In this document: positions 8,150-34,615 of the stretch, in pieces
Position numbering within the stretch: position 1 is the first letter of the stretch
Layout: every line of letters starts with the position of its first letter
Assembly (NCBI GenBank): GCA_000687695.1
Contig: JHWZ01000019.1
Coordinates: 1-36,867, forward strand
Length of the DNA: 36,867 nt
Reading direction: 5' to 3'
Source: Lachnospiraceae bacterium P6B14
Lineage (GTDB): Bacteria; Bacillota; Clostridia; Lachnospirales; Lachnospiraceae
Notes under the pieces: model-generated
What the model was told of the DNA's origin: nothing
What the model saw: only the letters and a program-made list of their open reading frames with translations
The model's database searches: none
Made by a program: the position numbers and the translations under genes

Positions 8150-8692
8150 ATGTTACTTTCCTATCAGGAATGTATTGAAAAGTTCGGAAACGACTACAAA
8201 CTAAAGAAAGAACTTAGTAGCGGAAATCTCTTCGTGAAAGAAAAGGGGATTTATTCTACCAAACGCAATGCTTCTGAGATAGATATAATCATGCAAAGAT
8301 ACCCAAAGGCTGTCTGTACCGGTCAAAGCGCTTTTTATTACCATTCCCTGACAGATATGATTCCTGATCACTATTTCCTTGCCACCAGGCGGACAGATAC
8401 AAGGATTAACGACCCTCGAATCATACAGTCTTTTATGAAAGACTCATTGTTTGAACCCGGCATCACCGAAATATTCTTTAATGGTTCCACCATCCGAATA
8501 TACGATCGAGAGCGCATGCTGATTGAGCTAATGCGGTTTAAAGCCAAAACCCCTATGGATTACTACAAAGAGATTATTCAGAACTACCGAAAACTGTCAT
8601 TCGAACTGGACTTCAACCTGGTAGAAGACTATGCGGATATGTTCAAAAACGGGGCAAAACTTATGAACAAGATACAGATGGAGGTGCTGTAA
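8150..8692 (+). CDS. AbiEi-type antitoxin, module AbiE-2 (180 aa)
   Basis: Paralogue of the antitoxin at 6744-7283: YQECIEKFGNDYKLKKELSS, then LFVKEKGIYSTKRN in the winged-helix part, and DRERMLIELMRFKAKTPMDY towards the C-terminus. The start is ATG 8150, with GGAGGAGG about 8 nt upstream; a longer in-frame ATG at 8114 lies inside the operator and is rejected. Its stop overlaps the toxin start (TAATG). Its operator differs from that of AbiE-1, so the two antitoxins probably do not cross-regulate. Confidence 0.9.
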   Translation: MLLSYQECIEKFGNDYKLKKELSSGNLFVKEKGIYSTKRNASEIDIIMQRYPKAVCTGQSAFYYHSLTDMIPDHYFLATRRTDTRINDPRIIQSFMKDSLFEPGITEIFFNGSTIRIYDRERMLIELMRFKAKTPMDYYKEIIQNYRKLSFELDFNLVEDYADMFKNGAKLMNKIQMEVL

Positions 8693-9495
8693 TGAACCTG
8701 TATGAAGAAATTGAAAAGATTAAATCATCCGGCTATTCCGAACAGAACGCGCAATTAAAGCTAGGGCAGGATATTATATTAAAAGCCATTGCAGACAGCG
8801 GCATGGCAAAAAACACAACAATAAAAGGCGGCGTTGTCATGCGGAGCATTTCAGGAAATGCCCGCCGCGCCACACAAGATTTCGACCTTGATTTCATCAG
8901 GAACTCCATTTCTGACGATTCCATACAAAGATTTGTAGAAACACTCAATTGTATTGAAGGCCTGACATTAAAGCTCGAGGGTAGAATTATCGATCTCAAT
9001 CATCAAGATTATAAAGGAAAACGAATCCATATTTCAGTCGCCGACACCGAAGGTACGGCCATTTCCCTTAAAATGGATATTGGTGTTCACAGCGATCTTT
9101 CTATCGAACAGGAAGAATATGCCTTTGATGTTGATTTTCAGGATGATGCTGTGACTCTACTGATAAACTCACCTGCTCAGATGATTGCTGAAAAACTTAA
9201 GTCAATGGTTAGATTCGGAAGCCGTAACACACGGTATAAGGATGTGTTCGATATATGCTATCTCAGCGAACGAGCAAACATGGATCAGCTCAAGGATTGT
9301 ATCCAAAAATACATATTTAACGATGTTACACTTAAAAATGTGTCTGACATGACTGCCATCATTAAAAGGATTGAACGTATGTTTACTAATGCTGATTACA
9401 AAAACGAACTACGAAGATCCAACAAAAACTGGCTTGGTCTTTCAATCGATGAGGTTCTTGAAAAGGATCTGGAATACATTAAGAGCATACGATAG
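8692..9495 (+). CDS. AbiEii-type nucleotidyltransferase toxin, module AbiE-2 (267 aa)
   Basis: Type IV toxin. Motifs: TTIKGGVVMRSISG and RRATQDFDLDF (residues ~40-68), SLKMDIGVH (~125), and PAQMIAEKLKSMVRFG with RYKDVFDICYL (~160-187). All active-site positions seen in the AbiE-1 toxin are present, so both look intact. This is the only protein-coding module of the island on the plus strand; it converges on the Fic remnant, with palindrome copy 5 between them. Confidence 0.92.
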   Translation: MNLYEEIEKIKSSGYSEQNAQLKLGQDIILKAIADSGMAKNTTIKGGVVMRSISGNARRATQDFDLDFIRNSISDDSIQRFVETLNCIEGLTLKLEGRIIDLNHQDYKGKRIHISVADTEGTAISLKMDIGVHSDLSIEQEEYAFDVDFQDDAVTLLINSPAQMIAEKLKSMVRFGSRNTRYKDVFDICYLSERANMDQLKDCIQKYIFNDVTLKNVSDMTAIIKRIERMFTNADYKNELRRSNKNWLGLSIDEVLEKDLEYIKSIR

Positions 9496-9555
9496 ATGCG
9501 GATTTATTAGATTCTACACTCGTATCGCATTATCATGATCAAAACAATCATTCAC

Positions 9556-9600
9556 ATATTGCAATAAAAGCCGGGGCGTTGGCGCGCCCCGGCTTCCTTT
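9556..9600. repeat. Island palindrome copy 5 (bidirectional terminator-like)
   Basis: GCCGGGGCG-TTGG-CGCCCCGGC preceded by CACATATTGCAATAAAA and followed by TTCCTTT. It lies between the convergent AbiE-2 and Fic genes, so it may serve both. Confidence 0.85.
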
Positions 9601-9604
9601 GAAT

Positions 9605-9637
9605 AACCTATGCATTTTTAAGAGTTTTGCATAGGTT
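9605..9637. repeat. Second copy of the AbiE-1 operator at the fic 3' end
   Basis: AACCTATGCA (9605-9614) / TGCATAGGTT (9628-9637), the same inverted repeat as 7305-7337. Similarity continues for about 25 bp into the fic coding end (CAAATACTGCTT). Confidence 0.85.
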
Positions 9638-10248
9638 TATTCAATTTTTTCAAATACTGCTTTTCGGATCGCTTTTTCCTTATCCCTTGAAAACTCGCTG
9701 ATTCGATAGTACCTTATCCTCTCCTTCACGATGATAGGTTCTACAAAACCGTTTTTCGCCAAGCTCGAAAGTCTGTTTATCACGGTTTTATTGGTTACAC
9801 TCAGTTTTCTGCTCACCTCGATCGGCGTAAAACTGTTATTGTAGTTGTCAAGCAGAAACAAAAGCAATTCCATCTCTTTTCCCTTAAGATGCGAAAGACC
9901 GCTTTTCACTGCATCTTTTCCGGATCCTGACGATAGTTCGCGTGCCTTACTTGAATACAGCAGGACCATCCTCAGAAAATAGTTTATCCAGATTTCGGAA
10001 CGAGGCGGATCATTTCTACCTGAGTAGTATAGCGCAGGAAGGCCCATTTGAATCGATTCATAGTATTCGTCAGTATCATAAGCAAAGTACTCTTCGAGTG
10101 ATCCGATGCCATTAAACCCGTAACCATTGGTATCCATTATATATCCCGACATCAATCGGGCTGTCCTGCCATTTCCATCTTCAAACGGATGGATGGTGAC
10201 CAGCTGATAATGAACAACCGCTGCCACGATAAGAGGATGAATTTCCAT
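9637..10248 (-). pseudogene. 5'-truncated Fic-domain protein gene
   Basis: The C-terminal ~200 residues of a Fic/DOC-family AMP-transferase. The catalytic loop HPFEDGNGRTAR is intact near residue 20, followed by the Fic helices and a winged-helix tail (FTPIEVSRKLSVTNKTVINR). The family usually has 150-190 residues before this loop, including inhibitory and substrate-binding parts; here there is nothing. The ATG lacks a ribosome binding site and follows an 11-bp direct repeat (TATTTTTTCAC). It is probably dead, though a short product would still carry the catalytic loop. Its last codons overlap the copied AbiE operator. Confidence 0.75.
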
Positions 10249-10294
10249 TATTTTTTCACTATTTTTTCACTATTTATTTTCAGAGTTCTTTCAC

Positions 10295-10338
10295 ATATCG
10301 CCATAAAAGCCGGGGCGCAGAGCGCCCCGGCTTCCTTA
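10295..10338 (-). repeat. Island palindrome copy 6 (terminator-like)
   Basis: GCCGGGGCGC-AGA-GCGCCCCGGC, preceded by TTTCACATATCGCCATAAAA. This longer flank is shared with copy 7. It lies 19 bp past the stop of the AAA ATPase gene. Confidence 0.9.
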
Positions 10339-10356
10339 TACAAAGCTTTCCTTTTT

Positions 10357-11388
10357 CTAATAGTTTTCCAAAACATACTGTTCAAATAGCGGCAGGGCAA
10401 ATCTCAGAGTGCCATATTCCGAGCCATCCACTAACCCTTTCCTTATCAGCCTTTTTCTGTAGGGATTAAACGAGTTAGTCTCCATATTTAGGTAATCTCT
10501 TATTGTTTTTACCCGATCATCCTGCACAGATGCCATTCCATATAATACTCTTTTGTCCTCATGAGAAAGCTCCATCCAGATCTTATCGTACACGTAGTCA
10601 TCCAAGTACTGCTTGAACTCAGGCATAGCCCTCTCTACATCCCCCTCATATTTCCACACAAAATGTCCCAAAACCTGAAACGCAAACGAATAACCCTTGG
10701 TTCTTTTTGCAAGATCCAACGCTTTTTCTCTGTCCAGGTTTAACACATTTTGATAATTATCCGTCATTACTCCGATATTCAGAGGTGCTAGCTCCACCTT
10801 TGGCGCTCTATACAAAAAAGTCATAGAATCCTGATTTTCCAGCTTACTAATATTGTCGTATAATCCCGTCATCAACAAAAAGATCGGGAGTTCATCACGG
10901 ATCATAATCTGGAAAGACGAAGCAAATACACGCATATTTTGGGTACCTGTCACCTCGTCAATCGTTACGAGAAGTCTTTTTTTGTGTTTTTTAAGATTTT
11001 CCAGCATTCTTGTGATCGCGACTTCAACATCTGTGATCTGCCTGCTTCCGGCTATATCGACACCTATACCAAAGAAAGACAGGTTAATCTTTGCCTCTTT
11101 AAAGATGCTACCAAGATCCTTTCTGTTGTATAGCTTAGACATCAAGCTTTCCAAAAGATCCTTCTCCGGGTTCAAAGAAATCACGATCCATTCATCGTTC
11201 TTTTGCAATGATTGGGCAACTTCCGTCATAAATACTGTCTTCCCGCTCCCTCTCACCCCTGTGATCACAAATATCTGCTGTGACAGATCGGGATCTTCAA
11301 AGTTCTCCAATATCATATTCAACTGTGTGGTTCTTATTATGTTTTGTTTTGGCTTCTTTCCAAAACCGATAGTATATGGATTGATCAT
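10357..11388 (-). CDS. AAA-family ATP-binding protein with C-terminal winged helix (343 aa)
   Basis: P-loop ATPase of the AAA_16 / archaeal-ATPase type. Walker A is GVRGSGKT near residue 46, Walker B RLLVTIDEV near 140, and a sensor-like LLMTGLYDN follows near 175. The C-terminal part (RDYLNMETNSFNPYRKRLIR, then LRFALPLFEQYV) looks like a winged-helix DNA-binding segment. Such proteins are common next to mobile elements and in defence islands, but their roles are mostly unknown. ATG 11388 has CGGAG about 7 nt upstream. It follows the recombinase gene, with tandem repeats between and overlapping them. Confidence 0.8.
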   Translation of the reverse strand: MINPYTIGFGKKPKQNIIRTTQLNMILENFEDPDLSQQIFVITGVRGSGKTVFMTEVAQSLQKNDEWIVISLNPEKDLLESLMSKLYNRKDLGSIFKEAKINLSFFGIGVDIAGSRQITDVEVAITRMLENLKKHKKRLLVTIDEVTGTQNMRVFASSFQIMIRDELPIFLLMTGLYDNISKLENQDSMTFLYRAPKVELAPLNIGVMTDNYQNVLNLDREKALDLAKRTKGYSFAFQVLGHFVWKYEGDVERAMPEFKQYLDDYVYDKIWMELSHEDKRVLYGMASVQDDRVKTIRDYLNMETNSFNPYRKRLIRKGLVDGSEYGTLRFALPLFEQYVLENY

Positions 11389-11410
11389 ATGCACTCTCCG
11401 TTCTGTTTTT

Positions 11411-11489
11411 TACTACTTTTTACTGGTTTTGAAAATTTTTACTACTTTTTACTGGTTTTGATTTATTTTACTACTTTTTACTGGTTTTG
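11411..11489. repeat. Three 21-bp direct repeats at 29-bp spacing over the recombinase stop codon
   Basis: TACTACTTTTTACTGGTTTTG occurs at 11411, 11440 and 11469. The third copy encodes the end of the recombinase (DKTSKK and its TAG stop). The copies are identical while the 8-bp spacers differ. They may be recombinase or ATPase binding sites or a slippage product. Confidence 0.85.
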
Positions 11490-12409
11490 TCAATCTCATC
11501 CAGCAGATTCACTATATCCTCCTGTCTTGACGGGAACATATGAGAATAGGTGTTCAGCGTAATGCTCGGTCTGCTATGGCCAAGCCTGTGAGATACCTCC
11601 AGGGCGCCAAAACCCTTGTTGATCAGCAGCGATGCTGCCGAGTGCCGTAATCCATGTACATTGATATCCCTCACTCCCGCGATCTTTGCGTACTTATGGA
11701 TCCTGTAGTACAGCCAATCTATGTCCACGGGAAATACTCTTCGCCATTCGTCCGTAGATTTCTGGTTTTTTATGTGCTCCTTCAGCTCCTTTACCAGGCA
11801 ATCCGGGATCAGTATCGTACGGTTCGAGGAGTTGGTCTTTGGTTCCCAAATATACTTTTTCCCTCTTATCTTTTGAAAAGTCTTGTTTATGGTTATCTCC
11901 CTTCTGTCGAGATCGATGTCCTCCGGGGTGAGCGCCAGCATCTCTCCTGCTCGGATCCCCGTCCAAAACAAAGTCTCAAAACATATGTAAGCTAACGGTT
12001 CTACTTTTGTAGCATCTCTAAATGCAAAGTATTCCTCCGGCGTCCAGTACTTGGAGCTGCGATTCTTTACGCTCCCCATGCTTCGCACACGGGTACATGG
12101 ATTCACCGGTAGGTCACATAACTCCTTCACATACTCCATGAATGCGGACAGCTGTGCATTCATGTAATGAAGATACGATGAAGAGTAGCCAAACTCAGCA
12201 GAAGACTGCTCGACCTGCCATTGTTTGATGACATTCGGTGTGATATCACATATTCTCATCTTACCGAAAAACGGTAGGATCTTGTTTTCAAATACATTTT
12301 GCTTCATCCTTAGTGTGGACATCTTGCATCTGAGCCTGATATCATTCATATAGATTTCATAGAAGTATTCAAATGTCCCTTTATCATTCGCATTGTTTTC
12401 TACTGTCAT
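11471..12409 (-). CDS. Tyrosine recombinase / integrase (312 aa)
   Basis: Site-specific recombinase with an N-terminal core-binding domain (FEYFYEIYMNDIRLRCKMST onward) and a C-terminal catalytic domain. Catalytic residues seen: Arg in TGIRAGEML (~148), HGLRHSAASLL (His-x-x-Arg, ~250), HRLGHS (~275) and Tyr in TLNTYSHMF (~288), so the active site is complete. At 312 residues it lacks the arm-binding N-terminal domain of many phage and Tn916-type integrases. The start ATG has GGAGGG about 8 nt upstream. It is the only recombinase in the island and the likely source of mobility, though no attachment site was identified. Confidence 0.9.
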   Translation of the reverse strand: MTVENNANDKGTFEYFYEIYMNDIRLRCKMSTLRMKQNVFENKILPFFGKMRICDITPNVIKQWQVEQSSAEFGYSSSYLHYMNAQLSAFMEYVKELCDLPVNPCTRVRSMGSVKNRSSKYWTPEEYFAFRDATKVEPLAYICFETLFWTGIRAGEMLALTPEDIDLDRREITINKTFQKIRGKKYIWEPKTNSSNRTILIPDCLVKELKEHIKNQKSTDEWRRVFPVDIDWLYYRIHKYAKIAGVRDINVHGLRHSAASLLINKGFGALEVSHRLGHSRPSITLNTYSHMFPSRQEDIVNLLDEIDKTSKK

Positions 12410-12462
12410 ACCTGCATCCCTCCATTTATGACAATTCCAGTATCGGATTTCCCTTCATTTTA

Positions 12463-12618
12463 TTAATCAACATATGCATCCCTGCTTTCACGTGAGGTGA
12501 AATTTTTGCACCTCACCAAATCATTGACCTCTTCTCTAGTCAGTTGAAACATAAACTCATCACCCTCAAAGCGATCTGCATTGTTTTTCACCTGACGATT
12601 GAATTTCTTAGTCTCATA
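12463..12618 (-). pseudogene. ORF6N-domain (phage regulator) remnant
   Basis: A 51-codon open frame without a start codon reads YETKKFNRQVKNNADRF, then FMFQLTREEVNDLVRCKNFT. This matches the ORF6N domain of phage and mobile-element regulators (typically ETKxLNxxVKRNxxRFPxDFMFQLT). Both ends of the domain are missing. It is evidence that phage-like DNA once lay beside the recombinase. Confidence 0.65.
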
Positions 12619-12830
12619 TCATATCCCTCCTTAGTGTTTCGGTAGTCAATAAATACCAAAACCAAGAGGAAATGTCAAATCATCTACACGAGTAGAGCAT
12701 AGAGGTCTCTTGTGCAAAATTAACAAAGTAGAGGATTGTAGTCCGACGCATCACGCCCTAAATTTTGTCTAAACGACAGAACCCTCTATCTAAAATTTGT
12801 TGAAGATTCACAAAGATTGGTTTTTTTCAC
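12619..12830. other. Intergenic stretch with no recognised feature
   Basis: No ORF with a ribosome binding site and no clear promoter or RNA. Probably decayed mobile DNA between the ORF6N remnant and palindrome copy 7. Confidence 0.4.
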
Positions 12831-12875
12831 ATATCGCCATAAAAGCCGGGGCGCAGAGTGCCCCGGCTTCCTTTT
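12831..12875 (-). repeat. Island palindrome copy 7 (terminator-like)
   Basis: GCCGGGGCGC-AGA-GTGCCCCGGC with the TTTCACATATCGCCATAAAA flank of copy 6. It lies 25 bp past the hipA-like stop. Confidence 0.9.
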
Positions 12876-12899
12876 CTCCGTTTTCTCATGGATTCAGCA

Positions 12900-14027
12900 T
12901 TACAGATATCGACTCAGCGATCGTGTCCCTTCTCGAATCTCATTTAATATCCCTATACATAACGGTTTTGGCATGCCGGCATCTGTGCCGGCTTTAATCA
13001 GGTCCTCATCTGAGATGTTTTTTCCTTTTCCGCAAACGGACGTGGTCTGTTCTCCCCAATACGTGGTGCTAAACGTCAGATCATATGCCGGAGCCAATCT
13101 CCACCCCTTATCCTCCATATAGAGCAAAGAGAAGTTCTTGGCATGATCATCCAGATTGTGGGTGAGAACGTTAAAACACATAACCCGATACATCTGCTCC
13201 ACATCATCTGAGTTATCTCTCGTCAGCATACGGATAACCTTAAAGTATGTGCCGTAATCACAGGATGGCGCTCGAAAATCGGCCTCAAGCAGCCCGGCAA
13301 AAGTCAAACTGAATATCTTTTCTCCACCTCGGCGATCAAACCTGGCAGTTTTAAAGTAGCCTTCGCAAACAGATGAATCAATAAGCTCCGTCTCAGTCAT
13401 TATTATCCCGCAGCTTTTAGCGCATACCGAATAATCGTATTCTCTTTTGCCACAGATACTCGGATCCACACCCGCAGGAAACTTGACAATCCAATCCTTA
13501 CCGTTTTCCTTTATCAGCACCTTCGGCCTCGTTCCTCCGCTGGAACCTCCCAGTCGATATAGCATATCCAGTTGATCAGTCTCAGCTGATGCCAGTACTT
13601 TTTCGCATTCTCCGGCGATCTGATCATAATCTAAACCCACGGATTCCACACTAAAGTCCGACTCTTTAGCAGGATAATACTCAAGCGCGCCCATTCCGGA
13701 TTTGCCGGTATACGCCAATCTGTCCAATGATGAAACATCACCGGCTGCTATTCCCATTGCGCTCAAACGACGGTTCAGCAGCAGTTCGCCCCAGCTGTCC
13801 GGAAGGCTGTCAGCAAACACTCCAAACAGTCCGTTAAAACGATCCCTGCATTTTTCGGGAGGAACAAACACGTTACTGTTTAACGGCAGAGATAACGGGC
13901 TGATTGCGAAACCATTTCGGATCCAATCATCATCATACTGAAATGCAATCATATGATCTGTTGTTTCTGCCAGGTATCCAACCCGACTTCCATGGTAATA
14001 AACTTCCAGTTTCCTAGTCTCGGTCAT
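12900..14027 (-). CDS. HipA-family serine/threonine kinase toxin (375 aa)
   Basis: Toxin of a type II HipBA pair; HipA kinases phosphorylate aminoacyl-tRNA synthetases in studied cases. Motifs: the N-terminal HipA_N domain (LEVYYHGSRVGYLAE, then PLSLPLNSNVF), the Gly-rich loop RLGGSSGGTRPKVLI (~185-200) holding the regulatory serine, the catalytic loop HNLDDHAKNFSLL (~300) with catalytic Asp and Asn, and LAPAYDLTFST (~325) as the metal-binding Asp. All appear intact. Length is at the short end of the family. It overlaps the antitoxin by 14 nt, and its ribosome binding site GGAGGT lies within the antitoxin gene. Confidence 0.9.
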   Translation of the reverse strand: MTETRKLEVYYHGSRVGYLAETTDHMIAFQYDDDWIRNGFAISPLSLPLNSNVFVPPEKCRDRFNGLFGVFADSLPDSWGELLLNRRLSAMGIAAGDVSSLDRLAYTGKSGMGALEYYPAKESDFSVESVGLDYDQIAGECEKVLASAETDQLDMLYRLGGSSGGTRPKVLIKENGKDWIVKFPAGVDPSICGKREYDYSVCAKSCGIIMTETELIDSSVCEGYFKTARFDRRGGEKIFSLTFAGLLEADFRAPSCDYGTYFKVIRMLTRDNSDDVEQMYRVMCFNVLTHNLDDHAKNFSLLYMEDKGWRLAPAYDLTFSTTYWGEQTTSVCGKGKNISDEDLIKAGTDAGMPKPLCIGILNEIREGTRSLSRYL

Positions 14028-25888: not shown

Positions 25889-26038
25889 CTCTGACGCCTC
25901 CTCTCATGATCTGTTACGTAAAAAGCTCCTGAAGCTCTTCTACAAACATACATTTTAACATAAACTTAGCAGTTTCGCAATCTTTTTCTCGTCTGCGGGA
26001 TATATTACATCCGGATCACAAAACATCCCAGAAAAGCA

Positions 26039-26096
26039 TTGACATAGTCGTACGACTATATTATACTTATTGTATAACAATATGGTCGTACGGCTA
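26039..26096 (+). promoter_or_regulatory. Promoter and two palindromic operators of the HipB-like gene
   Basis: TTGACA (26039-26044), 17-nt spacer, TATACT (26062-26067). TAGTCGTACGACTA (26045-26058) lies between the two boxes and TGGTCGTACGGCTA (26083-26096) lies 38 bp further on. Autorepression is expected. Confidence 0.85.
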
Positions 26097-26117
26097 TTTT
26101 TGAAAGGTGATAAGTAT

Positions 26118-26342
26118 ATGAAAATATCAGATATGTCTTCTTTTGGCCGGGAAATCAAGCATAGACGTAAAGAACTTGGATACACTCAGGCATATGTATC
26201 CGAGTGCAGTGGTTTGTCGGCAAGTTTTCTATCAAATCTTGAAAATGGGAAAGAAACCGTAGAGATGGGTAAAGCATTAAAAGTTGTTCAACTTCTGGGG
26301 ATGGATTTGATCATAAGCATAAGAGGAGAAAACGATGAGTGA
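26118..26342 (+). CDS. HipB-like XRE regulator (74 aa)
   Basis: Helix-turn-helix: FGREIKHRRKELGYTQAYVS, then GLSASFLSNLENGKETVEMG, ending MGKALKVVQLLGMDLIISIR, the usual HipB-type antitoxin end. ATG 26118 has AAAGGTG upstream; an earlier ATG at 26070 lies inside the promoter. The operators at 26045 and 26083 fit its own repression. Its toxin partner is reduced to a 39-codon stump overlapping its 3' end by 8 nt, so it may now work only as a repressor. Confidence 0.8.
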   Translation: MKISDMSSFGREIKHRRKELGYTQAYVSECSGLSASFLSNLENGKETVEMGKALKVVQLLGMDLIISIRGENDE

Positions 26343-26454
26343 AAAAACTGTTTGGTTAGAGGTCAATGGTTTCTCAGTTTTGGTTGGCCGCATCTGTGGC
26401 GATTATGCTTCGGATGCTTCTTTTTCCTATGCCGAAGAATACCTGGACGTCTGA
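26335..26454 (+). pseudogene. HipA N-terminal stump (39 codons)
   Basis: MSEKTVWLEVNGFSVLVGRI then SYAEEYLDV and a stop. This is the start of a HipA_N domain (short beta strands and an FxYxxxYL motif) but lacks the entire kinase. It ends 14 bp before the EAL-protein start, as though the rest of hipA was deleted or replaced. Confidence 0.65.
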
Positions 26455-26467
26455 AAGGGGCTGTCAT

Positions 26468-28564
26468 ATGTTTATCAATAAACTGAATCAGTTATATAAA
26501 CCGAAAAGAATTCTGTATTATATCGACGCCTCTGCCGATGATATAGAGAAGTTTTGTCACGGTAATATCCCGGATGAAGTGGCGAAATACACGAATGATT
26601 TTGGAACGTATGACAGCCCCGGTGTATTTTTCATAAAAGAACTCGGGACGGAAGTTATCGGGATCGAGTATAAGGACGGTGGATCCGGTGGTACAGGCGC
26701 TGCAGGCGTGAGTGGCACGGCAGGTGGTGGATCCGCTGCCGGTGAGTCCGGTGGTACAGGCGCTGCAGGCGTGAGTGGCACGACAGGTGGTGGATCCGCT
26801 GCCGGTGAAATCGACTACCCGCAGGGGCTCTCTTCTATCGTGCTCGACGGGGCATTTTTCTACTCGATTGAAATAGATAACGAGGTCGAGATCAGCGACC
26901 ACAACATACGCAAGCTTTTTAAAAAGATGGCTGCGGATGATGACGCGCACAGGATCTACTCGGATTTTTCGATCAAGGCTGATCCGGATGTGATCAGCAT
27001 GTTCGCATCCGAGAAGAAGCTTCGCCTGCTTTATGAGTGCAGGCTGGATCGTGATGGTGCGCTCCCCGTGATCAATGATGATTCGGCAGCGCTCTCTCAT
27101 GATCAGATGTATAAGGCGGCATTTTTTGATCCGATCACAAACCATTACAATTGGAATCATCTGCTCGCATTCATCGAGATGCCGATGGATTTCGGTATCA
27201 CTGATTTTGCTTTTGTTCATTTTGACATCAAGGAGTTCAGGGTGATCAACGAGGTTTACGGACACGTGGCAGCAAATCAGGTTTTGAAAAACGTCGTAAG
27301 CGCGATGAACGAGGCTGATTTTGTTTATGCATCCGCCAGATGTCACAACGACAATTTTGCCATGATGATCCGCGATATGCCTGAGGATGAGACTTTGGCG
27401 AAGCTTGCGATTTTTTTTGAGAAGCTATCTCACCTTGAGGTCGATACTAACTATGAGATTCTCTATAGATGCGGGGTTGTCCCGATGCAGTGGACGATGT
27501 TATATGGCAACCGCGTGGCTGATGCCGCGAAGCTTGCGCAGTCGATGGGGACGCATCAGGATCGCACGGATATCGTTATGTATACGGATCAGATGCACGA
27601 GGACATCCAGTGGGGAAACTATATCAAGGCTTATGTGGACACGGCGATCGAAAAGGATGAGTTTGTCGTGTATCTGCAGCCGAAGTTTGATATAACGGGT
27701 GGCACCGGGGATGAGCGTGGCGCCGGGGCTGAGAGTGGCGCTGGAGCTGAGAGTGGCGCTGGGGCTGAGATTGGCGCTGGGGCTGTGAGTGGCGCTGGAG
27801 CTGAGCGTGGTGCCGGGGCTGTGAGTGGCGCTGGAGCTGAGCGTGGTGCCGGGGCTGTGAGTGGCGCTGGGGCTGAGAGTGGCGCGCGGATAAAAGGAGC
27901 CGAGGCGCTGATTCGATGGAATTACCGGGGACGGGAGTTTTTGGCGCCGTACAGGTTCATACCATTTTTCGAGAAGGACGGATCTATCGGAAAGATAGAC
28001 GATATCGTACTTGATAAGGTTTGTGCCGCATTTAAAAGATGGAAAGCCGAGGGGAAACCGCTATATCCTATTTCAGTGAACCTCTCTCGCTCACGTCTGT
28101 ATGACAAAAGACTTATCGATCACCTGACTTCGATAGTCGACAAATACAGCGTCGATCATTCGCTGATAGATTTCGAGTTGACGGAAAGTGCTTCTTATGA
28201 TGACCAGGATCAGATGCTCAGAGTACTTAACGACCTTCGCGACAGAGGATTCAGAATTTCGATGGATGACTTCGGAACCGGATACTCGTCATTGTCGCTA
28301 CTTACGGAAATGCCTCTGGACACACTGAAGATTGATAAAAGCTTCGTTGATCATATAGGAACTGAGGACGAGAGACAGAAGGATCTCGTAGTGATCCGGC
28401 ACATCATCGCTTTGGCGAAAGAGCTTGATTTCCGATGCCTCGCCGAAGGTGCCGAGGAGGCTTCCCAGGTTAACCGCCTGAGAGAGCTCGGATGCGAGAT
28501 CGTACAGGGTTACTATTTCAGTAAGCCCATAGCGATGGCTGAATACGAGGAGAAATACCTGTAG
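26468..28564 (+). CDS. Degenerate GGDEF plus EAL protein, likely c-di-GMP phosphodiesterase (698 aa)
   Basis: N-terminal ~190 residues unknown, then a GGDEF-like domain (~215-360) whose signature reads CHNDN rather than GGDEF, so no cyclase activity is expected. The EAL domain (~400-698) has YLQPKFDI, GAEALIRW (the EAL motif), ELTES, MDDFGTGYSS and LKIDKSF, so phosphodiesterase residues are intact. Two in-frame repeats interrupt it: two 21-residue units after GIEYKDGG (~73-114) and about nine GAGAES-type units (~418-473) inside the EAL domain just before KGAEALIRW. ATG 26468 has GAAAGGGG upstream. Probably lowers c-di-GMP. Confidence 0.9.
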   Translation: MFINKLNQLYKPKRILYYIDASADDIEKFCHGNIPDEVAKYTNDFGTYDSPGVFFIKELGTEVIGIEYKDGGSGGTGAAGVSGTAGGGSAAGESGGTGAAGVSGTTGGGSAAGEIDYPQGLSSIVLDGAFFYSIEIDNEVEISDHNIRKLFKKMAADDDAHRIYSDFSIKADPDVISMFASEKKLRLLYECRLDRDGALPVINDDSAALSHDQMYKAAFFDPITNHYNWNHLLAFIEMPMDFGITDFAFVHFDIKEFRVINEVYGHVAANQVLKNVVSAMNEADFVYASARCHNDNFAMMIRDMPEDETLAKLAIFFEKLSHLEVDTNYEILYRCGVVPMQWTMLYGNRVADAAKLAQSMGTHQDRTDIVMYTDQMHEDIQWGNYIKAYVDTAIEKDEFVVYLQPKFDITGGTGDERGAGAESGAGAESGAGAEIGAGAVSGAGAERGAGAVSGAGAERGAGAVSGAGAESGARIKGAEALIRWNYRGREFLAPYRFIPFFEKDGSIGKIDDIVLDKVCAAFKRWKAEGKPLYPISVNLSRSRLYDKRLIDHLTSIVDKYSVDHSLIDFELTESASYDDQDQMLRVLNDLRDRGFRISMDDFGTGYSSLSLLTEMPLDTLKIDKSFVDHIGTEDERQKDLVVIRHIIALAKELDFRCLAEGAEEASQVNRLRELGCEIVQGYYFSKPIAMAEYEEKYL
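26684..26809 (+). repeat. In-frame 63-bp tandem repeat (two copies)
   Basis: Two nearly identical 63-bp units (21 codons, starting SGGTGAAGVSG) beginning at 26684 and 26747, differing at very few bases. They sit in a loop of the unknown N-terminal domain of the EAL protein. Confidence 0.92.
27719..27886 (+). repeat. In-frame 18-bp minisatellite (about nine copies) inside the EAL domain
   Basis: Repeated GCGCTGGGGCTGAGAGTG-type units encode GAGAES and variants (GAGAVS, GAGAER). Some variants alternate at 36 bp. The period is a multiple of three, so copy-number changes keep the frame. Confidence 0.92.
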
Positions 28565-28569
28565 GAACG

Positions 28570-29155
28570 CCGCGCTGCTCCGGATAACTTTTCCCTGCCC
28601 TATCGGGCAGGAGGTCGGAAGCAGAGGCCGGAAGCAGAGGCCATTCCTACTTTTTTGGCTTTTCTGCCCGTTTAGTCGGAAAAGCTTCTCCCTGCCCTGT
28701 CACCTTCTACCCCATCGCTTCCTGCCACAGGGCGCGCGGGAGGCTGGAAGCAGAGTTCGTTCCTACTTTTTTAGTTTTTTCGCTCATTTAGTCAGAAAAG
28801 TTTCTCCCTGCCCTGTTGGGCAGGAGGCCGGAAGCAAAGGCCGTTCCGACTTTTTTGGTTTTTCTGCCCGTTTAGTCGGAAAAGTTTCTCCCTGCCCTGT
28901 CGGGCAGGAGGCCGGAAGCAGAGGCCGTTCCGACTTTTTTAGGTTTTTTGCTCGTTTAGTCGGAACAAATTCTTCTTCTCGGCTGCTACGGACTGGAAGC
29001 GGAGTAGGTATCGGAGAAAAAGTTCCGACTTTTTTGACGATTTTACTCGTTTAGTCGGAAGCGCTTCTGCTTCCAACCAAATCCATCTCAAGCAAAACGC
29101 AAAAAGTTCCGACTAAATCACTCAAAATCACGATTTAGTCGGAACCGACACTGTT
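28570..29155. repeat. Hairpin array A (about six TTCCGAC...GTCGGAA units)
   Basis: A non-coding array of units with GTTCCGACTTTTTT...TTTAGTCGGAA hairpins near 28645, 28760, 28842, 28926, 29022 and 29106. Spacers alternate between CCTGCCCTGTCGGGCAGG-type and CTTCTCGGCTGCTACGGACT-type segments. The minus strand gives stems with long A/T loops. The whole is an inverted copy of the array at 32590-33120. Confidence 0.9.
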
Positions 29156-29186
29156 TCCACTCCCACGCGGCAGGTCACACCGCTGC

Positions 29187-29344
29187 TTCCTCTTGTCTGC
29201 CAAACGCCGACTTCGTACACGCACCGAAGCCTACGCCAACATTTCCTCTTGTCTGCCAGACGCCGACCTCGTACACGCACCGAAGCCTACGCCAACATTT
29301 CCTCTTGTCTGCCAGACGCCGGCCTCGTACACGCACCGAAGCCG
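29187..29344. repeat. 56-bp tandem repeat, three copies
   Basis: Units starting TTCCTCTTGTCTGCC at 29187, 29243 and 29299 (exact 56-bp period), the last ending near 29344. Open frames across it are repeat artefacts without ribosome sites. Confidence 0.9.
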
Positions 29345-29500
29345 GCACCCAGCGCTCTTTCCTTCTCCTGAGGAACCTATCCGGAAAACAACCACCCACC
29401 CGGTATCGGTTCCTTTCATGACATATCATAACAACTTCCATTGTCAAAATCGGCTCACTAATTCGACACAAATATGAAAGTTTCATGATAAAAATATGGC

Positions 29501-29521
29501 CGGAAAGCATCTTGCTTTCCG
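29501..29521 (-). terminator. Probable terminator of the DUF362 gene
   Basis: CGGAAAGCA / TGCTTTCCG, a 9-bp stem with a 3-nt loop. On the minus strand it is followed by GCCATATTTTTATC, about 80 bp after the DUF362 stop. Confidence 0.65.
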
Positions 29522-29600
29522 ACCGTACATAAACAATTCTTCTGCAGCATCCATGTATTCCCTTTATAAACAAAACAAGTCTTGTGAAACACCCCTGATA

Positions 29601-30740
29601 TCAGATCCTTTTCAATTCGTATTCTCTGGTTCCCAGGCCGATCTTCTCTGCATGCGACAGGCAGGACTCCCATTCCGTATCAGGATGTATCATATGGAAA
29701 TGATCATGAGTTTCTGCTTCATGCGGGTTTTCTTTGACATGATCATCGAGGATACTCCCATCGATAACAGGCATCTTGTTACAAAGATCCGCGCAAGCCT
29801 GATCAAGTGCCACAGGATCAAACGAAGCCAGCATCCCGACATCCGGAATAACCGGGATATCGTTCTCGGCGTGACAGTCGCAGTCAGGCGACACATCGCA
29901 GATAAGTGAAATATGGAAACATGGTCTGTCCTTGCACACGGCAAGACTGTACTCAGCCATCCTATAATTCAGTTTCGCTATCGAATCGTCGAAGCTTGCA
30001 CTGATGGCATCCTTCGGACATACGGCAAGACACCTTCCACAGCCAACACAAATATCATGATTTATGCGTGCCTTTTTCCCTTCGCCGGATACGTATTCGC
30101 GGATGTCAGGAGCTCCATGCGCACAGATCCTGTCACACGCACCGCATCCGATACACAACTCCTCATCCACAGTCGGTTTGCCATCGCAGTGCTGTTCCAT
30201 TTTTCCGGCCCTCGAGCCGGAGCCCATACCGATGTTTTTGATAGCACCGCCGAACCCGGCCATCTCATGTCCCTTGAAATGATTCAGCGAGATAAAAATG
30301 TCCGCATCCATGATGGCGTGACCGATCTTCGCTTCTTTGACATACTCGCCATCGAGCTTAACCAGTGTCTCATCCGTGCCCTTCAGTCCATCAGCGATGA
30401 TCACGTGACATCCTGTCTGCAGCGGTGAGAATCCGTTCAGATAGGCGGTCTCGAGGTGATCGAGAGCATTTTTTCGACTGCCGACATAGAGGGTGTTACA
30501 GTCTGTCAAAAATGGCTTGCCACCGAGTTCCTTCACATAATCCGCTACAACCCTGGCGTAGTTCGGACGTAGGAATGCCAGATTTCCAAGCTCGCCGAAA
30601 TGGATCTTTATGGCAGTGTACTTGTCCGAAAAGTCGATGTTTTCGAAGCCGGCGGTCTTGATCAGACGATGTAGTTTCTGCGGCAGGTTCTCACTCATTG
30701 TTGTTTTAAACGTGGTGAAAAACACTTCTGATTTGCCCAT
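29601..30740 (-). CDS. DUF362 protein with two 4Fe-4S ferredoxin clusters (379 aa)
   Basis: The N-terminal two thirds are DUF362: AIKIHFGELGNLAFLRPNYA, PFLTDCNTLY, ISLNHFKGHEMAGFGGAIKN and IGMGSGSRAGK. Residues ~193-245 hold two ferredoxin motifs, CIGCGACDRICAHGAP and CVGCGRCLAVCPKDA; the first is CxxCxxxCxxxG and lacks the usual Pro, the second is canonical. It is expected to be a cytoplasmic iron-sulphur electron carrier or assembly protein; the substrate is unknown. GGAGGTAAA precedes the start. The 186-aa gene upstream, with a 40-bp gap, probably forms an operon with it. Confidence 0.9.
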   Translation of the reverse strand: MGKSEVFFTTFKTTMSENLPQKLHRLIKTAGFENIDFSDKYTAIKIHFGELGNLAFLRPNYARVVADYVKELGGKPFLTDCNTLYVGSRKNALDHLETAYLNGFSPLQTGCHVIIADGLKGTDETLVKLDGEYVKEAKIGHAIMDADIFISLNHFKGHEMAGFGGAIKNIGMGSGSRAGKMEQHCDGKPTVDEELCIGCGACDRICAHGAPDIREYVSGEGKKARINHDICVGCGRCLAVCPKDAISASFDDSIAKLNYRMAEYSLAVCKDRPCFHISLICDVSPDCDCHAENDIPVIPDVGMLASFDPVALDQACADLCNKMPVIDGSILDDHVKENPHEAETHDHFHMIHPDTEWESCLSHAEKIGLGTREYELKRI

Positions 30741-30780
30741 TTTACCTCCATTCCCAAGTGCATTCGGTGCACTTGCCGCT

Positions 30781-31341
30781 TCAGTTGGTTTGATCCATAG
30801 TTTCCTGACTTACATATAAACCGGACTCCGACCAGATGCTCATTATCTCACGTATCGCAAGGTTGCAAATATGATAGACCGTTTTATCCGGCCAGGGCAG
30901 CCCTTCTATATAATCGCGTTTTCTGCTGTCCAGCGCGGTGATCATTTTTTGATAAAGTGCTGGATCATGTGCTTTTATTATGCCGATATCGAGTTTAACA
31001 TAAGATGCAGTTCTGTTGGGATTGTTTTCGGTTAATGCTATACTAGTATCTATTTCCACCCGACGAAAGCTTCGTTTCCCATACTTACCGATATCCATCA
31101 CGTAATCGTATCTTGGTTCATTTGCTTTATCCGGGGGATTCAGTCTGATCATGCCCGTTTCGATATAGAATTCCCATACAGTCTCGGCTATTTTTTCTAA
31201 GGAAACCGGATAGTCCGTTGCTGCTTTTATCTGCTTAACACTGTAGCCTTCATCGGCCATGTGACATATCAGATCCTTGTTCGCCATCCCAAAAGTAAAA
31301 TTTGATAAAGCGCTGTCGAAAGCGCTGGGGTTTTCCTGCAT
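30781..31341 (-). CDS. Unrecognised protein, possible helical regulator-like N-terminus (186 aa)
   Basis: I do not recognise a family. Residues ~25-60 (DLICHMADEGYSVKQIKAAT, then SLEKIAETVW) look like a helical DNA-binding-type segment, followed by a mixed middle (NEPRYDYVMDIGKYGKRSFR) and a helical C-terminus. It is cytoplasmic, with no signal peptide or membrane segment. It lies directly before DUF362 in the same direction, so the two may work together. No strong Shine-Dalgarno site was identified, so the start is provisional. Confidence 0.65.
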   Translation of the reverse strand: MQENPSAFDSALSNFTFGMANKDLICHMADEGYSVKQIKAATDYPVSLEKIAETVWEFYIETGMIRLNPPDKANEPRYDYVMDIGKYGKRSFRRVEIDTSIALTENNPNRTASYVKLDIGIIKAHDPALYQKMITALDSRKRDYIEGLPWPDKTVYHICNLAIREIMSIWSESGLYVSQETMDQTN

Positions 31342-31421
31342 AAGTGCTCCTACTGTTTTTGTGAATACAATTGCCTCTTTCCTAATTATATCAGTTGGAT
31401 TATTTCAAAACAAGATTTTTC

Positions 31422-31450
31422 TTGATTTTTTTCAGCTGCAGTATTATAAT
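31422..31450 (+). promoter_or_regulatory. Promoter of the nuclease-like gene
   Basis: TTGATT (31422-31427), 17-nt spacer, TATAAT (31445-31450). It leaves an AT-rich leader of about 265 nt before the start at 31721; the 31342-31720 gap otherwise holds no clear gene. Confidence 0.6.
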
Positions 31451-31720
31451 CAGCTTATATCTGGACTATCCTAATCAGAATCATTTTTAATTCTATTAGA
31501 ATCTTCTTTCTGTAATTAAGGAAAGCCGTAATTATGTTTCTTTTGGGTATTTTTTGACAGTGTGGATTGAACGATGACAGTTCTGTCGGTTTGTTTTTGT
31601 TACTCTTTTTTACCCCATTGTAGTTTGTTAACTGTTGAACTGTTGGAGTATTTGGTTTCGTTTTGGGAACCTTAATACTTCGATTAATTCTACCCAAATT
31701 CAGAAAAGGAGGAAATAAAA

Positions 31721-32554
31721 ATGGTCTATACCAAGGAATCAATTCGAAATGAACTGAAGGAGTTGAATAGTATCAAACAAACTCTTCGCTCAGCTGAAAG
31801 AGCGGAGTTTAAAAACAGAAAAAAACTTGAAACAAATGGATATGCTTCCGCTCGCCTAGTGACAGAAGAAAAGAATAATCACTATTCGTATTATGCAGTC
31901 AAACCTGATGGCACTCGTATTTATTTAAAAAAGAAAGACGACTATAGCATTATACACAGCCTTGCACAACGGGACTATAATTCAAAACTACAACGCAGGA
32001 TCGACGAAAGAATAAAGCGACTGGAAAAACTGGAAAAAATATGTCCCCAGAATGAAGTATGGGGGTTTTATAACTCCTTACATCCCGCAAGAAAAGAAGT
32101 TGTTTCTCCTATTATTGAATCAGATGAAGATTATGCCAAAGCTTGGAGTGAAAAGAGTTACTTATCAAATGATTTTGATCTTCCCCAACAAACTATAGAT
32201 ACTATAACAAAAAACGGAGAAATAGTGCGCTCAAAATCGGAAAAGATTCTGGCAGATATGTTCTTTGACAACGGTGTTCCATACAGATATGAACCGGAAC
32301 TTGTACTTGAATCGGGTCACAGGATCTTTCCTGATTTTGTATGTCTTAACAAACATAACCGGAAAGAGTTTGTTTGGGAACACTTCGGCATGATGGATAA
32401 CCTTGAATACATAAGCCGTAACATTCCAAAACTGAGAGAATATGAGCAAAGCGGGTATTTGTTGGGAGCAAACCTTATTATTTCATATGAGACCATGGTT
32501 GTAGGATTATCAACTATGGTGATACAGAGTTATATTGATCAATATCTCTTATAA
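31721..32554 (+). CDS. PD-(D/E)XK nuclease-like protein (277 aa)
   Basis: A long charged helical N-terminus (ESIRNELKELNSIKQTLRSA; RIDERIKRLEKLEKI, coiled-coil-like, to ~110), then a restriction-nuclease-like core: VRSKSEKILADMFFDNGV (~165-185), YRYEPELVLES, FPDFVCLN (~205, the conserved Asp) and EFVWEHFGMMDNLEYI (~220). The WEHFGMMD run recurs in uncharacterised Firmicute proteins with this fold. AAAGGAGGAAATAAAA precedes the start. The gene is clearly more AT-rich than its neighbours, which suggests transfer. Thirty-odd bases past its stop begins hairpin array B, whose first hairpin (GTTCCGACTAAATC/GATTTAGTCGGAAC then TTTTT) is a fine terminator for it. Confidence 0.75.
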   Translation: MVYTKESIRNELKELNSIKQTLRSAERAEFKNRKKLETNGYASARLVTEEKNNHYSYYAVKPDGTRIYLKKKDDYSIIHSLAQRDYNSKLQRRIDERIKRLEKLEKICPQNEVWGFYNSLHPARKEVVSPIIESDEDYAKAWSEKSYLSNDFDLPQQTIDTITKNGEIVRSKSEKILADMFFDNGVPYRYEPELVLESGHRIFPDFVCLNKHNRKEFVWEHFGMMDNLEYISRNIPKLREYEQSGYLLGANLIISYETMVVGLSTMVIQSYIDQYLL

Positions 32555-32589
32555 TGTGGTGTTAAGGTCTGATAAATGGGAGCGGAATA

Positions 32590-33120
32590 AGAGCGGAAAC
32601 AGTGTCGGTTCCGACTAAATCGTGATTTTGAGTGATTTAGTCGGAACTTTTTGCGTTTTGCTTGAGATGGATTTTGTTGGAAGCAGAAGCGCTTCCGACT
32701 AAACGGGCAAAATCGTCAAAAAAGTCGGAACTTTTTCTCCAATACAGACTCCGCTTCCAGTCCGTAGCAGCCGAGAAAAAGAATTTGTTCCGACTAAACG
32801 AGCAAAAAACCCAAAAAAGTCGGAACCGCCTCTGCTTCCAGCCTCCTGCCCGACAGGGCAGGGAGAAACTTTTCCGACTAAACGGGCAAAATCGTCAAAA
32901 AAGTCGGAACTTTTTCTCCGATACCTACTCCGCTTCCAGTCCGTAGCAGCCGAGAAGAAGAATTTGTTCCGACTAAATGAGCGAAAAAACCAAAAAAGTC
33001 GGAACGAACTCTGCTTCCAGCCTCCCGTGTGCCCTGAGGCAGGAAGCGATGGGGTAGAGGGTGACAGGGCAGGGAGAAACTTTTCCGACTAAACGAGCTA
33101 AATAACTAAAAAAGTAGGAA
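32590..33120. repeat. Hairpin array B, inverted copy of array A
   Basis: Six GTTCCGACTAAA...AAAAAGTCGGAAC-type hairpins near 32605, 32692, 32788, 32872, 32966 and 33088. Spacer types match array A read on the other strand (e.g. GCTTGAGATGGATTTTGTTG at 32659, the reverse complement of bases near 29075-29094). The first unit doubles as a terminator for the nuclease-like gene. A further hairpin CGCCGGTAC/GTACCGGCG lies at 33121-33141. Confidence 0.92.
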
Positions 33121-33250
33121 CGCCGGTACATCGTACCGGCGCTCCGATCCTTCCGCTATACGGAAACCTAATCAATTCCACTACACAACAAACCAATTCT
33201 TCCCACCACTCGGAAACCAAGTCTGTTTCACTCTACAGCAAATCTATAAT

Positions 33251-33448
33251 CTATTCATCTTCCCAGAACAATTCATCAAGCGTCTTTCCGAGCGCCTTGC
33301 AGATCGCGATACACAGATTTATGGTCGGGTTATAGTCTCCCTTTTCTATTGCGCTTATCGTCTGGCGGGAAACTCCGCACGCTGCAGCGAGCTGCTCCTG
33401 GGAGAGATCCTTTCCAGCACGCGCTGCTTTAAGTTTCAAGTTTTTCAT
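33251..33448 (-). CDS. Small XRE-family transcriptional regulator (65 aa)
   Basis: A stand-alone helix-turn-helix protein: LKAARAGKDLSQEQLAAACG, then VSRQTISAIEKGDYNPTINL, ending ALGKTLDELFWEDE, the common single-domain XRE type. It follows the membrane protein gene in the same direction, 110 bp apart, with a 26-bp tandem repeat between. Such XRE/membrane-protein pairs are frequent in Firmicutes, and the regulator often controls the pair. Confidence 0.9.
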   Translation of the reverse strand: MKNLKLKAARAGKDLSQEQLAAACGVSRQTISAIEKGDYNPTINLCIAICKALGKTLDELFWEDE

Positions 33449-33493
33449 GTATTACCACCTCGCTTCACTTTTTCCTGTATTTCTTGGCAGGCT

Positions 33494-33545
33494 GCGCCAC
33501 GCATCTCCTCCCCATACACGCGCCACGCATCTCCTCCCCATACAG
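33494..33545. repeat. 26-bp tandem repeat, two copies
   Basis: GCGCCACGCATCTCCTCCCC plus ATACAC occurs at 33494 and 33520. On the minus strand each carries GGGGAGGAGATGCGTGG, a ribosome-site-like stretch between the two genes, but far from the regulator's start codon (~46 bp). Confidence 0.85.
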
Positions 33546-33558
33546 GATCCCACAGAGA

Positions 33559-34080
33559 TTACTCCGCATCCTCTTTCTTATCAATGCACTTTTTGATCGC
33601 CATCTCGATACATAAGATGATAAACATCACGCCAACTTCCAGATTGATAAATGTCGGATACACTTCACCGTTCTGGATAAAACCATTCCTTACTATCGGC
33701 ATGATACCACATACAAGATTGATTACCGAAACAATACCCATAACGACCATAAAACGGGCAAAATTGTTATTCATAGCCATATAGCCATCATTAAAAATAG
33801 CATGAGATATCTGAACAATTATACCGACAAATAATGGAAGGAAAAATGCATTCATACCCAACATTTTAATGATATCCATGTTCTCGACACCGACTAATAG
33901 CATGATAACATTCGCTATTGCCATACCCCAGAAGCCGTACATATACGACCTTCCGCGTACTAACTGCTGCCTCTCGTCATACTCTGATTTCACCTTTTTG
34001 TCGCGATTGATATACTTCATAACGAATACTACAATTATCAATCCGACCATGATTCCAATTGCTAAACCTGCTGATTTCAT
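33559..34080 (-). CDS. Four- to five-helix membrane protein (173 aa)
   Basis: Membrane helices near GLAIGIMVGLIIVVFVMKYI, MAIANVIMLLVGV, AFFLPLFVGIIVQIS, FMVVMGIVSVINLVCGIMPI and EVGVMFIILCIEMAI; the segment VKSEYDERQQLVRGRSYMYG is a conserved-looking cytoplasmic loop seen in uncharacterised Firmicute proteins paired with XRE regulators. ATG 34080 has AAAGGAGG upstream; an in-frame ATG at 34149 lies inside the duplicated leader. It is transcribed from the promoter at 34359 through a ~270-nt leader with two related hairpins, then the XRE gene. Confidence 0.75.
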   Translation of the reverse strand: MKSAGLAIGIMVGLIIVVFVMKYINRDKKVKSEYDERQQLVRGRSYMYGFWGMAIANVIMLLVGVENMDIIKMLGMNAFFLPLFVGIIVQISHAIFNDGYMAMNNNFARFMVVMGIVSVINLVCGIMPIVRNGFIQNGEVYPTFINLEVGVMFIILCIEMAIKKCIDKKEDAE

Positions 34081-34086
34081 TTTATA

Positions 34087-34308
34087 CCTCCTTTTCTGAG
34101 CACTATGTGCGAAGAGCGCCCATGAGAAATTCGCAACGCGATTTCTCATGTGGCATCATGGGTGTTTGAGCTCTGCTCAAACACCCGGGTGAAAATAAAG
34201 CTCATCAGAGTTTATTTTCACCTTATCCTCCTTTTCTGAACACTTTGTGTGAGGTGCCCATGAGAAACTCGCAACGCGATTTCTCATGTGGCATCATGGA
34301 TGTTTGAG
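34087..34308 (-). repeat. Duplicated hairpin leader (two ~80-bp copies)
   Basis: CCTCCTTTTCTGAGCACT... at 34087-34170 recurs at 34227-34308. Each has a hairpin around ATGAGAAA...TTTCTCAT, and each brings a GGAGG site on the minus strand. Between them are hairpins GTGTTTGAG/CTCAAACAC and GGTGAAAATAAA/TTTATTTTCACC. A 14-codon frame starts at GTG just after the upstream GGAGG (VKINSDELYFHPGV). Confidence 0.85.
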
Positions 34309-34358
34309 TCTGTAAGGATTCAACGCTTCCGGATAGCCTTGTCGTCCTTACATGTCAT

Positions 34359-34387
34359 ACTATACATCATAGTTTACTCTTTGTCAA
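34359..34387 (-). promoter_or_regulatory. Promoter of the membrane protein-XRE unit
   Basis: On the minus strand, TTGACA (34387-34382), 17-nt spacer, TATAGT (34364-34359). Confidence 0.8.
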
Positions 34388-34496
34388 GTATATTTTACAT
34401 TTTTCTATAAAAATTTTTTTAGGCCGTCCCGCACATACGCAGAACGGCCTATTATCTATACTTTAGGAAGCCTACATCCAAGCATGTCCACTCCCA

Positions 34497-34615
34497 GCGC
34501 GCAGGTCACACACCCGAAACGTATCTACACACCTGCTCGGTCCACCACCCGGGAGATCTCCCTCCGCGCGCAGTTCACACACCCGAGGCGTGTCCACACC
34601 CCTGCTCGGCCCACT
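34497..34615. repeat. Imperfect direct repeat, two copies at 69-bp spacing
   Basis: GCGCGCAGGTCACACACCCG (34497) and GCGCGCAGTTCACACACCCG (34566), each followed by a CTGCTCGG segment. A related CACGCGGCAGGTCACAC lies near 29164. There is no ORF with a ribosome site. Confidence 0.7.

Follow-up and report, generated by a model that had tools for sequence, protein, structure and literature searches.

Inverted hairpin arrays as probable cognate sites of a PD-(D/E)XK-like nuclease in Lachnospiraceae

In a 36,867-nt stretch of Lachnospiraceae bacterium P6B14 (contig JHWZ01000019.1 of assembly GCA_000687695.1; hereafter the window, its genome being designated G000), two inverted arrays of hairpins enclose a segment with a gene for a nuclease-like protein. 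We consider it probable that this nuclease has its cognate DNA sites in the arrays, and that arrays and enzyme form a two-part repeat system resembling REPtrons, with an unrelated enzyme. That the arrays are cognate sites of the nuclease is the safest statement. All of the evidence is comparative and comes from genomes that are mostly drafts.

The initial annotation described two inverted arrays of about six hairpins each, with two types of spacer, enclosing a DUF362 gene, an unknown gene and a PD-(D/E)XK-like gene. Reanalysis confirmed this layout (Table 1), the gene assignments coming from Pfam, an AlphaFold2 model and PADLOC. Units start at 28644, 28760, 28844, 28928, 29023 and 29107 in array A (together covering 28644–29144), and at 32609, 32693, 32788, 32872, 32967 and 33083 in array B (covering 32609–33120), with unit-to-unit spacings of 84, 95 and 116 bp. 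The two spacer types can be seen directly in the sequence between hairpins. The inverted arms (28843–29162 and 32591–32910) are 320 nt long, 95% complementary and separated by 3428 nt; compared over their full length, array A and the reverse complement of array B are 89% identical in 535 columns. The window contains 16 copies of the core word GTTCCGAC versus 1.08 expected, a count matched by none of 100 window shuffles, and 14 of the 16 copies lie inside the arrays. The innermost hairpin of array A has its array B partner at 32608–32647, and array B begins ∼35 bp past the nuclease stop codon. Two other identities for the arrays were dropped. A CRISPR-like guide array was rejected, as units within an array do not carry different spacers but are copies of a single word that alternates in orientation. 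As for an RNA family, the arrays had no Rfam match, and the sole match in 26000–34500 lay outside them and scored below the gathering threshold (24.8 of 51 bits).

Table 1. Features of the array-bounded segment (window coordinates)
Feature	Position	Strand	Description or basis
Array A	28570–29165	+	six TTCCGACT-N22-AGTCGGAA hairpin units
Innermost array A hairpin	29106–29145		perfect 12-bp stem GTTCCGACTAAA/TTTAGTCGGAAC
Three 56-bp tandem repeats, between array A and DUF362	29187–29354	+	sequence comparison
DUF362 / 4Fe-4S gene, passenger in segment	29601–30740	-	Pfam E 4e-52
Gene X, 186 aa	30781–31341	-	without family match
Nuclease-like gene, 277 aa	31721–32554	+	AlphaFold2 model, conserved residues, PADLOC match
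Array B	32590–33122	-	inverted copy of array A, six units

Arrays accompany the nuclease across its family. The genome collection contains at least 566 stretches that encode a relative. Of 294 genomes sampled from the order, 76 have family members, 13 of them at least eight copies. Among the best 80 of the at least 566 loci, most are from genomes named Lachnospiraceae, Butyrivibrio or Pseudobutyrivibrio; nine are from Treponema or Spirochaetaceae, and one is from Fibrobacter. In these 80 loci, coverage by tandem repeats was 14–33% in the three 250-bp bins preceding the nuclease gene, 7.5% in the first downstream bin, and no higher than 4.4% in all others. Family statistics were based on 145 non-identical members, with an upstream region of 900 bp. 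Periodicity of k-mers was detected in 87 of 139 usable upstream regions versus 21 of 142 downstream regions. Control frequencies were 23/448 for regions upstream of other open reading frames (ORFs; ≥150 aa, in the 80 loci) and 2/57 and 2/69 for distant stretches. An inverted half-site motif scored at least 12 in 101 of the 145 members (90 upstream, 11 downstream), the maximum in 25 base shuffles being 7.1; a few of these high scorers are simple repeats. The typical array contains one word in alternating orientation (e.g. AGATAGTAAG, CCCACTTAAC or GTACCCCG). It lies directly upstream of the gene in most members, and sometimes downstream or, as in the window, on both sides at a distance.

The repeats are in helical register. 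Periods of upstream arrays fall mostly at 51–55, 60–64, 71–75, 83–86, 94 and 104–107 bp, with a vector strength at multiples of ∼10.5 bp of 0.73 (n = 87 members). For members below 50% mutual identity (n = 55), the value was 0.75 at 10.5 bp, and 20,000 jittered nulls reached at most 0.40; this null was used instead of the periods from Tandem Repeats Finder, which left only 10 arrays in range as controls (R = 0.49 at 10.5 bp) and hence no clean control. Within the genus, elements of G000 and of a second species (G002) show spacings of mostly 74/75, 84–86, 95, 105, 115/116, 125/126 and 136 bp, and arrays in a genome of another genus (G283) are spaced by 71–72 bp. Because the half-sites are spaced mostly by whole helical turns, these data suggest that protein is bound on one face of duplex DNA.

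The initial annotation also offered redundant transcription termination as a role for the hairpins. Twelve terminator-like sites were predicted in 28500–33300, versus 4.3 (sd 2.1) in shuffles; five lie within the arrays or at their margins, and 5 of the 12 units are followed, in one direction, by five T. Yet the other seven units lack a T-run, and the central loop has 22 bases between 8-base arms. Moreover, a terminator could work without helical spacing, a locus-specific word or a nuclease. Because of this spacing, the array found upstream of the nuclease gene in most relatives and the tie between arrays and nuclease, termination did not hold up as the main role despite the T-runs, and we regard it as highly improbable.

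Family members with similar proteins also have similar half-sites. At 45–80% full-length identity (205 pairs, 81 loci), mean motif similarity was 2.48 versus 1.95 for permuted labels (0 of 2000 permutations). By identity class, it was 2.33 at 45–60% (161 pairs), 3.02 at 60–80% (44 pairs) and 4.62 above 80% (11 pairs), with permuted values of ∼1.94 and 0 of 2000 permutations in all three. We then compared pairs that share a half-site with pairs matched for overall identity (20–60%). Extra identity was confined to residues 45–75 (0.050, null sd 0.010, 0/2000), with none in residues 76–110 (524/2000), in the nuclease domain (1351/2000), or in residues 1–44 or 111–160; the segments were chosen, and the effect first seen, in exploratory analysis. 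These comparisons show that, at the level of sequence, the half-site word tracks the N-terminal β-sheet of the nuclease.

That sheet was located in an AlphaFold2 model of the protein, built from a 73-sequence alignment (mean pLDDT 94). The model has an N-terminal helix (2–38), three strands within 45–69, a long helix (75–107) and a C-terminal PD-(D/E)XK-like domain. Residues K172, E174, D205, E220 and H221 are among those invariant across the 73 sequences; the lysine of the classical E-x-K motif is presumably not at its usual place in the window nuclease (WEHFG). The first Foldseek matches include Bax1 (6p4w, the best), DrdV and an R2 retrotransposon protein, all weak (E 0.0012 or worse). Pfam gave no family at its cut-off, DUF790 matching below threshold in the C-terminal part (E 0.066), and at E 0.1 no family matched more than two of the 73 relatives. 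In PDB sequences, a profile search turned up only two matches above E 0.2. No transposase was among the Pfam matches; an unlinked RAYT in G000 was not searched for. The confident model, the weak Foldseek matches and a C-terminal match to PADLOC PDC-S68 together support a PD-(D/E)XK-like assignment. A plasmid or phage origin was considered and dropped: against 72,556 plasmid and 50,697 phage records, there were three partial matches each, none covering 80% of the nuclease, and array A had no match among the plasmid records.

The PADLOC match raises the alternative of an anti-phage or other defence system, in which the nuclease is tied to the array. The family is patchy and multicopy, the window contains several toxin-antitoxin-type genes, and the C-terminal domain resembles the candidate defence protein (E 2e-23). 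The match, however, spans only residues 162–275, aligned to the last part of a ∼1,220-position model, and defence gives dispersed solo arrays no role. We consider this alternative quite improbable.

Within the genus, hairpins are numerous only in genomes that carry the window nuclease or a close relative of it. Allowing one mismatch, we found 34 hairpins in G000, 19 in G002, 10 in a third genome (G022) and one, with one mismatch, in G007. None was found in the 33 remaining genomes of the 37 from this genus, or in 24 genomes of other families, and a reversed-pattern control gave no match in 60 of the 61 genomes and one in G027. Nucleases of the three hairpin-rich genomes G000, G002 and G022 are 100, 65 and 100% identical to that of the window, respectively; six other genomes of the 61 have family members at ≤40% identity only. 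G000 has a single nuclease gene, and all 34 of its strict units occupy seven stretches: the window, five others with arrays (L049–L053) and one with a single hairpin (L235). In G002, all 19 units are spread over eight stretches. If the window is left aside, 13 of 16 arrays or hairpins of the two genomes have four units, forming dispersed elements of ∼0.3 kb, and 15 of 18 arrays are free of ORFs ≥100 aa beyond a 60-bp overlap. The initial annotation would have been contradicted by many isolated copies genome-wide as simple terminators, together with no strain in which the segment is inverted or absent. That is half the case: isolated copies do occur in G000, but they are mostly ordered four-hairpin elements tied to the nuclease, L235 being the one single hairpin. 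Separately, the plan of the window recurs in G000 at L050 (5303–7006), where a PHP-domain gene (Pfam E 7e-13) lies between two inverted four-hairpin arrays. Another dispersed repeat, of ∼100 bp and unrelated to the hairpin word (L050 5071–5218; L227 42–187), has ∼25 matches each in G002 and G000.

A similar distribution was seen in G283, a single-contig genome from another genus of the same family with three nucleases. The cognate palindrome of one of them has 57 copies at 15 loci, and was absent from eight further genomes belonging to the family; with the pattern reversed as a control, there was one match, in G280. Fourteen of the 15 arrays do not overlap an ORF ≥100 aa by more than 60 bp, and flanking ORFs are convergent at six loci, co-directional at eight and divergent at one. 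At one locus (L262 2100–2230), a second short palindromic array with a different word (ATTACGGA...TCCGTAA) lies beside the cognate array; it is perhaps the word of another nuclease.

We looked for empty sites. A G002 element (L227, contig C60) is absent from the orthologous contig C17 of G000, the flanks being 944 and 121 bp apart, respectively. As regards a target-site duplication, the flanking intergenic DNA is too diverged to place the junction. Of the four other loci tried, L049 was occupied in G002, L050 met a contig end in G002, L052 had broken synteny, and L228 had one flank only. The enclosed segment is itself conserved in G002 in the order array–DUF362–X–nuclease–array, with spacers that are mostly unalignable. 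There it adjoins different genes, one of them MutS-like. The initial proposal of a mobile unit therefore stands in part: the dispersed arrays, the empty site and the new immediate neighbors agree with it, but the EAL, HTH and hypothetical flank genes are still within 6 kb.

A further alternative is that the arrays are operators. Here the nuclease-fold protein would be mainly a DNA-binding regulator, repressing its own gene via the upstream array and controlling genes near dispersed arrays. Arrays occupy the promoter region of most family members, helical spacing with inverted half-sites fits cooperative repressor binding, and the half-site co-varies with the N-terminal sheet. In G283, the eight arrays between co-directional genes are by that fact upstream of one of them. 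Yet a pure regulator would not need E174, D205 and E220, which are invariant. In G283, convergent ORFs flank six of the arrays and divergent ones just a single array, and the empty site and the inverted duplicates suggest movement. We therefore view a purely regulatory role as unlikely, although autoregulation may well coexist with movement, and an upstream array may act as an operator alongside spreading.

The initial annotation also suggested that the arrays might allow inversion of the segment. An inverted segment was found in L054, a 6675-bp contig (C91) of G022, between the same flanks as in the window. L054 is 90–96% identical to the window, inside an otherwise far more distant genome: at three other loci compared, G022 and G000 are 67–77% identical, and G022 has a separate gene X of its own on a different contig. 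For these reasons, L054 has probably been mis-binned and was treated here only as a contig of a G000-like strain; recent transfer is the alternative. An earlier interpretation of G022 as a sister species with an inverted segment was dropped on the same grounds. Both arrays of L054 are closer to array A of the window (94–95%) than to array B (88–89%), as gene conversion would give. The inversion is probably a by-product of recombination between the arms.

Is the segment instead an invertible DNA switch, with the arrays as its arms? The arms are long and alike, the orientation in L054 is opposite, and the PHP-domain gene of G000 also lies between inverted arrays. But many arrays stand alone, none of the three genes in the segment encodes a recombinase, no promoter that would be switched was identified, and the inversion is seen in a single, probably mis-binned draft contig. 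A phage-integrase-type gene 16 kb away in the window (11471–12409) shows no sign of a link. The inversion suggested initially has support, as an event, from this one contig; nothing shows a switch function, and we consider such a function improbable.

Several observations weigh against arrays as cognate, spreading sites of the nuclease. First, the association is incomplete: 52 of 139 members lack upstream periodicity at the threshold used, and the window nuclease itself has no array directly upstream, belonging to a minority with arrays placed otherwise. Second, co-variation is limited. The all-pairs Spearman correlation between motif and protein identity is weak (0.09 and 0.03), and label permutation leaves some phylogeny in the test. 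Similar motifs were found in 44% of 25 pairs at ≥80% nuclease-domain identity and in ∼1% of pairs below 60%, yet in only 10% of 142 pairs at 60–80%. The higher conservation of half-sites than of spacers is partly by construction, because units were found by their half-sites. A fold search with the N-terminal part alone gave no convincing match. Third, spacings of 122 and 132 bp in G002 are not whole helical turns, and a possible ORF ≥100 aa is overlapped by 3 of the 18 G000/G002 arrays and by 1 of 15 in G283. Finally, evidence of movement comes from one presence/absence site with a junction that is not resolvable, and one array (L049/L226) lies at the same position in both species, which favors age over recent movement. 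All 10 hairpins of G022 are on the probably mis-binned contig, so independent support within the genus comes from G000 and G002.

With the arrays taken as cognate sites, a mechanism can be outlined. An ordered multimer of the nuclease would bind the array in duplex form, contacts being made by the N-terminal part of the protein, and the catalytic domain would cut in or near the array or target sites. Repair of the break, templated by an existing array, could then place arrays at new sites, lengthen them and keep the copies alike. Such cutting, with an array copy as repair template, would account for the scattering of arrays, their growth in tandem, the inverted duplicates and the similarity of copies in one genome. 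Two inverted copies around a segment would let ordinary homologous recombination flip it, as in L054, and inversion would need no special function.

One study of REPtrons (PMC8266576) describes an enzyme gene beside palindromes, many cognate palindromes dispersed intergenically in direct and inverted orientation, palindrome abundance linked to the enzyme, and co-evolution of the two. The present system resembles these TnpA-REP/RAYT and REP/BIME pairs in having an enzyme beside an array, together with dispersed, mostly intergenic cognate palindromes found with the enzyme. It differs in four respects. The enzyme is PD-(D/E)XK-like, not an HuH/Y1 tyrosine transposase. There is no GTAG tag: GTAG/CTAC within 12 nt was found in 0/37 units of G000, 0/36 of G002 and 4/66 of G283. 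The multi-unit half-site arrays are in helical register, which suggests duplex rather than folded single-stranded DNA. And the nuclease genes are often multicopy, as the counts above indicate, whereas the same study gives tnpA-REP as mostly single copy.

Other known systems were compared as well. Bax1/DUF790 and related PD-(D/E)XK nucleases gave the best, though weak, Foldseek match and the subthreshold C-terminal match, but here the segment has no helicase gene, the protein has an N-terminal helix–sheet–helix part, and arrays are present. PDC-S68 shares only the C-terminal domain, its model being matched at its end. Like MITEs, the dispersed elements are short and non-coding, with inverted outer words (GGAAGCAG...CTGCTTCC in G000, TGGnACC...GGTnCCA in G002), and one site is empty in a relative (G002 C60 versus G000 C17). 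Unlike MITEs, their outer words recur between units, so that the true ends are not fixed; they have ordered internal half-sites, and no transposase is known for them. Invertible switches differ in having a dedicated site-specific recombinase, absent from the three genes enclosed here.

A broader and more tentative proposal, with odds we put slightly below even, is that these pairs constitute a new class of self-spreading repeat system. Each PD-(D/E)XK-type nuclease would read, in duplex DNA, a palindromic array in helical phase that is specific to it, copy this array chromosome-wide via break repair, and be retargeted by evolution of the small N-terminal β-sheet. Lachnospiraceae and Treponema would then contain probably hundreds of naturally different nuclease–target pairs. 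In the open-access literature searched we found no description of such a pairing, which is not proof that none is in print. If correct, the proposal would amount to a second, unrelated bacterial answer to the REP/RAYT arrangement, apparently undescribed, in common gut and rumen bacteria, and mutual upkeep of an enzyme and a chromosomal repeat would become a testable question. The family would also offer numerous naturally occurring combinations of a small DNA-reading domain with its target sequence, a basis for working out a recognition code.

Remaining features of the window and its relatives are as follows. Gene X had no match in Pfam, PHROGs, PADLOC or NCBIfam; it was matched in 7 of 39 same-genus genomes searched, and at four other loci (L244, L245, L246 and L248) it occurs with neither DUF362 nor the nuclease within ∼1.5 kb on each side. 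Kin of the 56-bp repeat form an inverted pair outside the arrays in G002 (L055 6789–6848 and 10974–11033), with a second inverted element around the first. The names we use for genes at L055 5059–5985, and for neighbors outside the Pfam scans, are presumed. A low-complexity GAESGAGAE-type repeat in the GGDEF/EAL gene of the window (27699–27889) gives many offset matches to L054. Pfam matches also mark a toxin-antitoxin-rich stretch of the window (4436–14027), with HEPN and nucleotidyltransferase genes (4436–5135), AbiEii (5917–6744), Fic (9637–10248), the phage integrase noted above and HipA (12900–14027). Another gene in this stretch (8692–9495) we take to be a second AbiEii-like gene.

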